This document shows, one piece after another, positions 6,434 through 9,380 of a DNA stretch of 51,501 nucleotides. The stretch's first letter is position 1; each line of letters begins with the position of its first letter. The DNA lies in NCBI GenBank assembly GCA_029906985.1, contig JARYMT010000005.1, forward strand, positions 1-51,501, read 5' to 3'. The notes beneath the pieces are model-generated. The model ran no database searches, was not told where the DNA came from, and worked only from the letters and a program-made list of their open reading frames with translations. A program made the position numbers and the translations under genes. The stretch comes from Microgenomates group bacterium (lineage in GTDB: Bacteria > Patescibacteriota > Microgenomatia > UBA1406 > GWC2-37-13).

Positions 6434-7267
6434 TTAATACTCAATAATTCTTAACTTCGCTGATCTTTCAAAATAATTTTTTGACTTTTCTGCGGCGAAA
6501 ATTTTCTTAATTAACTTTAAATTGTTTTCCATTATAAATTTCTTCACTATTCTATCCTCCAAAGAGTGAAAACTAATAATTGCAATCCGACCCTTTTTTT
6601 TCAAAATTTTTAGTGCTCCTGACAAACCTCTTTTTAAGTTAATCAAATCCTGATTGACAGCTATTCTTAAGGCCTGCATCACTCTTCGGTACGTTGATAA
6701 TTTTTGATTTCTCACCACTTGATTAATGATTTCTAATAATTGACCCACTTTTTCAATTTTTTTTAGACGACGGGCGAAAACAATAGCTTTAGCAATTGAC
6801 CGAGAATTGAGTTCTTCAGAATATTTCGCAATAATTTCATATAATTTATCCTCGGACAAACTATTAATTAGGTCGGCGGCAGTTAAACTTATACTTGAAT
6901 TTAGCCTCATATCTAATGGCTCGTCCTTTTTTTTAAAGGAAAAGCCCCGGCCAGATCGATTTATTTGCTCCATCGACAAACCTAAATCAAAAAGAACACC
7001 GTCTACCGGAAAAAAATGATTTTTTTTGGCAATCTCCTCAATTTCAGCAAAATTACCAACGACTAATTTATTATCTGTTAAACATTCTTTGTTGGTTAAA
7101 AGCCTGGTCACTTGCCAAGGATCTAAATCAATTCCTAAGACTTTTCCGCCTTGTTTAATTATTTCTTTAAAATGACCTCCCTCTCCCACAGTGGCATCAA
7201 TGTATAAACCGCCAGGCTTTATCTTTAATCCTTCAATAACTTCTTTTAAAAGTACCGGCGTATGCAT
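6434..7267 (-). CDS. rsmH: 16S rRNA m4C1402 methyltransferase RsmH (MraW)
   Basis: A 277-residue SAM-dependent methyltransferase acting on N4 of C1402 in 16S rRNA. Signatures are MHTPVLLKEV at the start, DATVGEGGH (SAM site), GIDLDPWQ, GVLFDLGLSMEQI, RGFSF, PLDMR and SFHSLEDRIVK. The ATG at 7265-7267 gives exactly the family's MxHxPVLL beginning. A longer reading from a TTG at 7298-7300 would run through an inverted repeat and is less likely. It is the second gene of the dcw operon after mraZ. Confidence 0.95.
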   Translation of the reverse strand: MHTPVLLKEVIEGLKIKPGGLYIDATVGEGGHFKEIIKQGGKVLGIDLDPWQVTRLLTNKECLTDNKLVVGNFAEIEEIAKKNHFFPVDGVLFDLGLSMEQINRSGRGFSFKKKDEPLDMRLNSSISLTAADLINSLSEDKLYEIIAKYSEELNSRSIAKAIVFARRLKKIEKVGQLLEIINQVVRNQKLSTYRRVMQALRIAVNQDLINLKRGLSGALKILKKKGRIAIISFHSLEDRIVKKFIMENNLKLIKKIFAAEKSKNYFERSAKLRIIEY

Positions 7268-7274
7268 ATTAAAT

Positions 7275-7300
7275 TTGAAGCTAAAATTTATTAGCTTCAA
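7275..7300 (-). promoter_or_regulatory. Perfect inverted repeat between mraZ and rsmH
   Basis: A perfect 10-bp inverted repeat (TTGAAGCTAA, 6-base loop, TTAGCTTCAA) ends 7 bases before the rsmH ATG. No T-run follows, so it does not look like a classic terminator. It could be an RNA hairpin that controls rsmH translation or mRNA processing, or a protein site. Confidence 0.5.
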
Positions 7301-7319: not shown

Positions 7320-7715
7320 TTAAGCTCCTGATTGTTTAAGATATTTTTCCCATTTTTCCGGTGACCAAATTTCAAAATGATCACCAGTCCCAACAATGAT
7401 TGCCTTATCTTTCAATCCAGCATAAATTAAAAGATGTCTTGGAATGACAAATCTACCTTGTTCATCAATATCCAAATAAACCGTTGACGAAAAAAGAAAC
7501 CGCCTTTTATCAAGACCTTCTTTTTCTAACAGTGAAACTGATAATAAGCTTTTTGCTTTTTCTTCCCAATCTTCTTTATCATAACCACTCAAGCAAAAAT
7601 CAAAACCTTTTGTTAGAATAAAAGTATTGCCTTTTAAAAGTTCCCTAAGTTTTTTAGGCAAAACAATTCGGCCCGGAGCAGAAAAGGAAACTAAATATTC
7701 ACCAAAAAACACCAT
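7320..7715 (-). CDS. mraZ: Transcriptional regulator MraZ
   Basis: A 131-residue protein with two SpoVT/AbrB-type half-barrels: GEYLVSFSAPGRIVLPKKLRE in the N-half and TVYLDIDEQGRFVIPRHL in the C-half, each with the MraZ DxxGR/IP pattern (APGR in the first copy). MraZ forms rings that bind direct repeats at its own promoter and control the dcw operon. It is the first gene of the operon, and the start codon lies inside a four-copy TGGT repeat array. No Shine-Dalgarno is present, and the predicted transcript start is almost at the ATG. Confidence 0.93.
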   Translation of the reverse strand: MVFFGEYLVSFSAPGRIVLPKKLRELLKGNTFILTKGFDFCLSGYDKEDWEEKAKSLLSVSLLEKEGLDKRRFLFSSTVYLDIDEQGRFVIPRHLLIYAGLKDKAIIVGTGDHFEIWSPEKWEKYLKQSGA

Positions 7716-7734
7716 ATATTACCATTTAAAACCA
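7701..7734 (-). promoter_or_regulatory. MraZ box: four TGGT repeats at 10-bp period
   Basis: On the minus strand TGGT occurs with its first base at 7734, 7724, 7714 and 7704, an exact 10-bp spacing. The array covers the -10 region, the mraZ start codon (third copy) and the first codons. Known MraZ operators are short direct repeats of TGGG or related type at 10-bp period upstream of mraZ, so this is very probably the autoregulatory operator. Confidence 0.85.
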
Positions 7735-7752
7735 TTTTGTTCTATTTGTCAA
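7724..7752 (-). promoter_or_regulatory. dcw operon (mraZ) promoter
   Basis: A perfect -35 TTGACA (7752-7747) is followed by 17 bases and a -10-like TTAAAT (7729-7724). Start of transcription is expected near 7717, 1-3 bases before the mraZ ATG, so the mRNA would be leaderless or nearly so. The -35 overlaps the murJ start codon on the other strand. Confidence 0.65.
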
Positions 7753-9380
7753 TGGATAAATTTTTAATAAAAACTAAAAAACTGATGTTTTCTCAACAAG
7801 GAGGAATCTTTTCCTCTGCTCTAATTATGTCAATTATGATTATTGTCTCCCGTTTTTTTGGTTTTTTAAGATTGAGAGTCTTGTCTTCGTATTTTACAGC
7901 CAATGAATTAGATTTATATTTTGCTTCGTTTCGGATTCCAGATATCGTTTTTGAAATTTTAATTACCGGGGCTCTTACTTCAGCTTTTGTTCCAATTTAT
8001 ATTAAGTATCAAAATAATAAAAAAGATTTGTGGGTCAATATTTCTTCGATTATCAACTTATTAACCCTGATCCTTTTTATTTTTATTTTTATTATTTTTA
8101 TTTTTTTAGATAAACTAGTTTTTTTAATGACTCCCGGCTACTCAGCAGAAAAATCAGCCACTATTGTTTATTACTCAAGGATTTTGCTTTTAGGTCAATT
8201 GCCTTTTTTGGTAATTGGTAATTTTTTAACCGCCATGGGGCAAGCTAATAAAAGCTTCTTGATTACTTCTTTGGCGCCAATTATTTATAATTTGGCAGTG
8301 ATTTTTACAACAGTTTTATGGGCGGGAAAAATCCATCTTTTTGCCCCAATTTTAGGGATTGTTTTGGGAGCTTTTTTGTTTTTATTGATTCAGTTGCCTA
8401 TTCCGTTTATTTTTAATTTTCAATATCTTTTTATTATTCGGATTACCGAAGGATTAAAGCATTTTTTCCGGATGGTTATTCCAAGAGTTTTTACTGTTTT
8501 GACTTCTCAAGTCGATGCCACTATTGATTTAACTTTAACCACCTTAATCAGCAACGGCTCTTACACAATATTTTATTTAGCTCAACATCTGCAACTTTTA
8601 CCTATATCGGTAATTGGCATCTCTTTTGGTCAAGCTTCTCTTCCTTATTTATCAGAAATATACCAAAATAAAAAAATTGATCAGTTAAAAAACTTAATTA
8701 TTGACTCAATTTTAAATCTTTTCTTTTTAACAATTCCAATTGCCAGTTTTTTTATTTTTTCCCGAACTCCATTGGTCCGACTTTTTTTCGGTGGTCAAAA
8801 ATTTGATTGGCAAGCGACCGTGCTCACTGCCTATACTATTTCTTGTTTTGCTATATCGATTCCTTTCCACTCGATTTATTATTTTCTAACTCGTTGTTTT
8901 TATGCCCTTTTGGATAGTCGAACGCCTTTTTATATCAGTCTTATTTCAATCGCAATTAACACTTTTTTTAGTCTAATCTTTATTCTATTTTTTAAGCTAC
9001 CGGTATGGTCATTAGCCTTATCTTTTTCGATAGCGATTTCCTTTAGTGTTATTTCTTTGTTTTATATTCTTTCCCGGCGATTAATCAATCTTAATTTTTC
9101 TTTTTTGATAAAAGAAACTACAAAAATCGTTATAATTACCATCATTGCTTCTTTAATTAGTTATTTTTCTATTAAAATTCTTGACGGCCTGATTTTTGAT
9201 ACTTCCCGGACAATTAATGTTTTTTTTCTTTTATCAACTGTCGCCATAATTTATTTATTTGTTTATTTATTTTTAGCTTGGTTAATAAATATCAAAGAAC
9301 TTTATTTAATTAGTAAACTATTAATAAAGACAAAAGAATATAAAAATAAAATATTAGCCATTTATTCGACTTATGATTGA
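7752..9380 (+). CDS. murJ: Lipid II flippase MurJ (MviN)
   Basis: A 542-residue polytopic membrane protein of the MOP superfamily, with many hydrophobic segments consistent with about 14 helices. It moves lipid II to the outer face of the membrane. MurJ signatures are SRFFGFLRLRVLSSYF, DLYFASFRIPDIVFEILITGALTSAFVP split over helices 1-2, the helix with GQANKSF, and LFFGGQKFDW. ATG at 7752 is chosen over a TTG at 7737. It is divergent from mraZ with 36 bases between the two starts, and its stop overlaps the next gene by 8 bases. Confidence 0.93.
   Translation: MDKFLIKTKKLMFSQQGGIFSSALIMSIMIIVSRFFGFLRLRVLSSYFTANELDLYFASFRIPDIVFEILITGALTSAFVPIYIKYQNNKKDLWVNISSIINLLTLILFIFIFIIFIFLDKLVFLMTPGYSAEKSATIVYYSRILLLGQLPFLVIGNFLTAMGQANKSFLITSLAPIIYNLAVIFTTVLWAGKIHLFAPILGIVLGAFLFLLIQLPIPFIFNFQYLFIIRITEGLKHFFRMVIPRVFTVLTSQVDATIDLTLTTLISNGSYTIFYLAQHLQLLPISVIGISFGQASLPYLSEIYQNKKIDQLKNLIIDSILNLFFLTIPIASFFIFSRTPLVRLFFGGQKFDWQATVLTAYTISCFAISIPFHSIYYFLTRCFYALLDSRTPFYISLISIAINTFFSLIFILFFKLPVWSLALSFSIAISFSVISLFYILSRRLINLNFSFLIKETTKIVIITIIASLISYFSIKILDGLIFDTSRTINVFFLLSTVAIIYLFVYLFLAWLINIKELYLISKLLIKTKEYKNKILAIYSTYD

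Follow-up and report, generated by a model that had tools for sequence, protein, structure and literature searches.

A putative MraZ operator spanning the promoter, start codon and first codons of mraZ in an order of Microgenomates bacteria

Introduction

The start of mraZ in a tiny uncultured Roizmanbacteria-like Microgenomates bacterium raises the question how the same bases can appear to be both a repressor site and protein code. In the window, the 51.5-kb stretch of DNA that was analysed as a whole, a series of short direct repeats runs from the promoter of mraZ into its coding sequence. The named close relatives of the source organism are Candidatus Roizmanbacteria and other Microgenomates/Patescibacteria. 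A functional MraZ site at this position would add MraZ division control to the few regulators known from this uncultured lineage, and would be a rare clear case of a repressor site dictating both codon choice and the position of a start codon.

Materials and Methods

mraZ is detected in 78 of the 83 genomes of the same order. The comparison comprises 77 distinct loci of this order, 72 contributed by the remaining families of the class and 30 by the rest of the phylum, together with 30 loci from Clostridia, 29 from Bacteroidota and that of Escherichia coli K-12. All comparison loci derive from a protein family search in which the listed best matches are favoured, and their sampling is non-random. 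One uniform start-codon rule was applied to every locus.

Results and Discussion

Architecture of the mraZ start region

Read on the minus strand, the promoter region of mraZ (7695–7755) has the sequence TTGACA-AATAGAACAAAATGGTT-TTAAAT-GGTAATAT-ATGGTGTTTTTTGGTGAATAT, or, in spacing form, TTGACA-N17-TTAAAT-N8-ATGGTGTTTTTTGGTGAA (Table 1). On this strand the four TGGT copies to which the first-pass annotation had drawn attention are correct, with exact 10-bp spacing and first bases at 7734, 7724, 7714 and 7704. The array begins in the promoter spacer, takes in the mraZ ATG (7715) and reaches codons 4–5, covering roughly −20 to +14. The overlap that had been claimed with the −10 element, the ATG and the first codons is borne out by the sequence as well as by the columns conserved across the order. 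mraZ heads the dcw cluster and lies immediately 3′ of the array, as expected for an operator made of MraZ boxes. Both MraZ (AbrB-like) domains of its product pass the curated cut-off of PF02381, and the genes that follow downstream are rsmH, a weak DivIC/FtsL-like ORF, a penicillin-binding transpeptidase and a Mur ligase.

The arrangement TTGACA-17-TTAAAT-8-ATG has the −10 element ending within the 6–8 nt of the start codon that mark a leaderless promoter. From the position of the −10 element, transcription is predicted to start at 7715–7717, and the predicted mraZ leader is only 0–2 nt long. A TTGACN-to-ATG distance of 31 nt is shared by 64 of the 77 order loci, and 11 more have 32 nt. A near-leaderless promoter, as had been suggested earlier, is the predicted geometry (−35, 17 bp, −10, 8 nt, ATG) with a spacing that is fixed across the order loci. 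With the relatives as guide, the ATG at 7715 is the correct start of mraZ, since all 77 relatives keep it, even the 13 whose second codon specifies Leu or Phe. The GTG at 7712 was considered as the true start and is ruled out, as these 13 relatives retain the ATG.

A Shine-Dalgarno core (GGAG, GAGG, AGGA or GGGG) is found at −17 to −4 in none of the 39 window ORFs that encode 100 aa or more (0/39). The 16S rRNA (L259) nevertheless retains an intact anti-Shine-Dalgarno end (GGATCACCTCC). Translation initiation seems to rely on signals other than Shine-Dalgarno.

Table 1. Coordinates of the mraZ promoter elements, the putative MraZ boxes and the surrounding genes in the window.
Feature	Position	Strand	Evidence
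−35 element TTGACA, mraZ promoter	7747..7752	−	sequence; 75/77 order loci with TTGAC 31 or 32 nt ahead of the ATG
−10 element TTAAAT	7724..7729	−	17 bp after TTGACA, 8 nt before ATG; TWWAAT columns conserved at −14 to −9
Putative MraZ box 1, TGGT, T at −19, in promoter spacer	7731..7734	−	TGG in 65/77 order loci
Putative MraZ box 2, TGGT, T at −9, shares last T of −10	7721..7724	−	TGG in 65/77
Putative MraZ box 3, TGGT, start codon and codon 2 (ATGGTG)	7711..7714	−	ATGG in 64/77
Putative MraZ box 4, TGGT, Phe4-Gly5 codons (TTTGGT)	7701..7704	−	TGG in 65/77
mraZ start codon ATG, within array	7713..7715	−	ATG in 77/77 order loci
mraZ CDS, 131 aa, protein begins MVFFGEYLVSFSAPGR	7320..7715	−	PF02381, two domains, E=6e-27
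rsmH (mraW), next dcw gene	6434..7300	−	PF01795, E=4e-75
murJ, divergent neighbour	7752..9380	+	PF03023, E=1e-65

Conservation and rarity of the array

In the order, TGG is present at −19, −9, +1 and +11 of the mraZ start in 65, 65, 64 and 65 of the 77 loci, respectively (∼84% each; because the order loci are related, such raw percentages overstate independence, and the tree-based codon comparison below addresses this kinship). The TGG cores, the −35 and the −10 elements stand out by column conservation, and the spacer columns are mostly variable. The distances between TGG cores peak at 10, 20 and 30 (179, 118 and 66 counts), with 0–10 counts at the remaining lags. Such direct repeats of a TGG core with 10-bp spacing at the mraZ promoter are characteristic of MraZ boxes and, judged by these columns and distances, the array is not a chance pattern. 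The first-pass annotation had staked its case on the 10-bp TGGT periodicity not being absent from close relatives; the alignment of related genomes clearly retains it. The unbroken register is reduced to only two TGG cores in 22 of the 77 order loci and to one core in 2.

The array is also unique within its genome. In the window, the pattern TGGTN6TGGTN6TGGT matches at this site only, where two overlapping registers account for the four copies, and shuffling gives a chance expectation of 0.01 matches for the three-copy pattern. The same two registers are the only exact three-copy matches in the whole 953-kb genome, in which additional MraZ sites with at most one mismatch show no excess (8, versus 8 for a reversed control pattern). 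A 57-nt sequence model of the module, searched against 80 genomes of the order, gives one strong match each, at mraZ, and secondary matches in any genome have E-values of at least 0.0016. A wider regulon with the same architecture is rejected on these two grounds, and regulation through this architecture looks local, since the one strong site per genome is always that of mraZ. Five genomes of the order (G003, G009, G281, G302 and G308) are without a detected mraZ, and in the four of these that were covered by the operator-model search there is no strong operator match either.

Nucleotide-level constraint in the first codons of mraZ

Two boxes of the array coincide with codons. Codon 5 (Gly) is GGT in 65 of the 77 order loci, compared with 27% GGT in the long ORFs of those loci. 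Codon 2, where it encodes Val, is GTG in 48 of 57 aligned cases, compared with 16% in those ORFs. On the mraZ gene tree, codon 5 has undergone 5 third-position (synonymous) changes versus 25–37 at other Gly codons, and Val-2 has undergone 6 versus 33–35 at other Val codons; the controls are the other conserved Gly and Val codons of mraZ itself, which share one tree. As measured by these rates, the coding half of the array is under nucleotide-level constraint and is part of the putative site. In addition, GGT occupies the Gly codon in 62 of the 64 loci that kept ATGG, versus 3 of the 13 loci in which codon 2 no longer begins with G. The latter association is suggestive, since the loss corresponds to two or three events on the tree, and the codon rates are the stronger evidence.

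These rates bear on the reading that the operator consists of boxes 1 and 2 only, in some genomes with one more at −30, and that the ATG and the Phe-Gly codons merely happen to place a TGG in register at boxes 3 and 4. FxGE is a conserved MraZ motif, some members of the class that start with GTG have GTGTTTTTTGGTGAA without an array covering it, and loci of the MLFLGEY type manage with upstream boxes alone. Protein constraint, however, cannot explain why only codon 5 of the four Gly codons is nearly fixed as GGT, and codon 2 is GTG, the rarest Val codon, whereas the other Gly and Val codons of mraZ vary freely. An operator confined to boxes 1 and 2 is therefore quite improbable. Box 4 may nonetheless have an older origin: as the codons GTG TTT TTT GGT GAA are present in the class members L102, L183 and L190, with GTG as the start and no array across it, this box is possibly older coding sequence that was brought into register, and not created by selection.

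The constraint on codons 2 and 5 might also stem from translation of a leaderless mRNA, through weak structure or a second GTG start, rather than from protein binding. The predicted leader of 0–2 nt, the missing Shine-Dalgarno motif before 39 genes of the window and the use of GTG as start codon in L102, L183 and L190 agree with this idea. A preference for A+T, however, would yield GTT or GTA and GGA instead of GTG and GGT, and the constrained bases keep precisely to the 10-bp lattice set by the upstream boxes, which makes translation a very improbable source of the constraint.

Relation of the array to murJ

The position of the array 18–50 bases upstream of the murJ ATG was annotated correctly, with this ATG at 7752; its first base is also the first base of the mraZ TTGACA (7752–7747). 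murJ is divergent in 60 of the 73 order loci with enough upstream sequence. The mraZ–murJ distance ranges from 36 to several hundred nt among order loci, and 36 bp separate the two start codons here, so that any murJ promoter in the window must overlap the array. The frequent divergence and the short distance in the window favour a shared operator through which MraZ would coordinate division and lipid II flipping, and such a function is compatible with the main explanation given below. It is nevertheless unlikely: in families f2 and f3 of the order the array persists without an adjacent divergent murJ, the distance varies, many relatives have a TATAAT near murJ that lies outside the array, and murJ is not found upstream of mraZ in the loci from elsewhere in the class or phylum. 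For the first three of these reasons the earlier proposal that MraZ affects murJ is left unsupported, and the array, being kept where murJ is absent, is to be regarded as a feature of mraZ. Some interference between mraZ and murJ is likely in this particular window, given that the start codons are so close and that the murJ ATG overlaps the mraZ −35 element. The TATAAT of murJ in order loci often lies just ∼6–12 nt before the ATG, and near-leaderless promoters may for that reason be common in this lineage.

Position and core of the boxes outside the order

Arrays of at least three exactly spaced TGG cores that reach the start codon or the coding sequence are present in 49 of the 77 order loci and in 2 of the 72 loci from the rest of the class. 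They are found in none of the loci from the phylum outside the class (0/30), from Clostridia (0/30) or from Bacteroidota (0/29; 0/89 altogether). Outside the order the boxes are mostly AGTGG, lie upstream of the gene and are often followed by a Shine-Dalgarno motif. This usual upstream-only placement does not apply here, as two of the four boxes overlap the start codon or the coding sequence, order-wide. Four copies had been pointed out as unusual, but at least four are present in 18 of the 72 sister loci of the class, and four-copy arrays of sister families lie entirely upstream of the gene; what is unusual is their position relative to the start codon. Later structural work on MraZ reportedly describes a four-box operator, and PDB entries named MraZ are 9QLR, 9QLG, 9R4J, 9SX6 and 9SZ7.

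The second unusual feature of the array, in the window and in the order, is its ATGG instead of GTGG core. In the upstream boxes of the order, TGG is preceded by A in 79% and by G in 2%, so that the GTGG(G) core seen in E. coli, Clostridia and Bacteroidota is not what is found. Other phyla, like Patescibacteria beyond the class, have G at this position in 93–97%, and the sister families of the class are mixed (52% G, 43% A). The ATGG core is a divergence of the box core and not the loss of a defining feature. The change from GTGG to ATGG falls in the same group as a change in the protein. The N-terminal motif D-x-K-G-R is nearly invariant in MraZ of other phyla, whereas residues 12–16 are S/T-x-x-G-R in the main variants of the order and SAPGR in the window protein (P0001), of which the second domain retains the Asp (DEQGR) of the DxxxR motif expected in both MraZ domains. 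A direct tie between the base before TGG and the residue that replaces the N-terminal Asp was considered and rejected; it holds between groups but fails within the class.

The phase of the array relative to the promoter is shared more widely. Taken modulo 10, the first box follows TTGACN by 2–3 nt in every one of the 73 scorable order loci and in 30 of the 31 scorable loci of the class. Sister Microgenomates families (e.g., L090, L100 and L174) likewise have TGG boxes with 10-bp spacing, in three to five copies and in phase with TTGACA. Unlike in the window, their ATG is most often found 54–61 nt after TTGACA (31 nt here), their array in most cases stops 12–17 nt before the start, and their cores are a mixture of AGTGG and AATGG. 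Family f95 (L178 and L193) is an independent case in which the start codon and N-terminal codons lie inside a box array. It appears to have taken another route, the box repeats being translated ahead of the usual start (MVKSGELLLGQ and MVKNGEKLIGQ).

Proposed mechanism

The array very probably represents an autoregulatory operator of mraZ into which the start codon moved when the 5′ leader was lost. The start codon would be the element that moved, since the geometry from promoter to array resembles that of the sister families and the phase is kept. Loss of the leader would have put the start codon within an otherwise conventional MraZ array, in which the ATG plus the initial base of codon 2 would now make up box 3 (ATGG), with box 4 supplied by the Phe-Gly codons. 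MraZ, an oligomeric AbrB-type protein, could then contact all four direct repeats along a single helical face, over the region from about −20 to +14. With promoter spacer, −10 element, transcription start and first codons occluded by bound MraZ, RNA polymerase would be excluded. mraZ and the genes behind it would remain silenced until MraZ is diluted. Tight autorepression, as was envisaged in the first-pass annotation, is plausible for such an arrangement.

Taken together, the site is a putative operator and, as a well-supported assignment, a lineage-specific variant of the known MraZ system. From comparing sequences we infer binding and repression, a leaderless transcript and the direction in which the site evolved, as well as recognition of ATGG by this MraZ, because its box differs from the GTGG of other phyla. 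We consider the chances even for a broader proposal, in which leader loss in the order, and separately in f95, made an operator box a start codon, with ∼50 bp serving as promoter, operator, start codon and N-terminal code, and in which the shift from GTGG to ATGG occurred together with that of the MraZ DxKGR motif. The GTGG-to-ATGG change, the S/T in place of D and the sublineages without boxes 3 and 4 would provide natural variants for studying how MraZ reads DNA.

Comparison with known MraZ systems

In Mycoplasma genitalium MraZ represses the division cluster (PMC8475190). The MraZ-bound site of Mollicutes (Fisunov et al. 2016, via PMC5282649 and PMC8475190) likewise consists of direct repeats with a 10-bp period at the dcw promoter. 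It differs in having, in these papers, three repeats, AAAGTGK, with an AAAGTG core. MraZ of E. coli is an established repressor of its own operon (Eraso et al. 2014, via PMC8475190). Its boxes are direct repeats of a TGGG core with 10-bp spacing before mraZ, and act in autoregulation of the dcw cluster, as is proposed here. Unlike the array of the window, E. coli has three clear boxes with a GTGGG core, all of which lie in the 5′ leader between the −10 element and the Shine-Dalgarno motif, the last one 23 nt before the ATG. The helical phase in E. coli K-12 is nevertheless the same: its first TGG follows TTGACA by 32 nt compared with 12 nt here, that is, two turns further downstream. With the phase relative to the −35 element common to the order, its sister families and also E. 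coli, repression by MraZ may follow a geometric rule.
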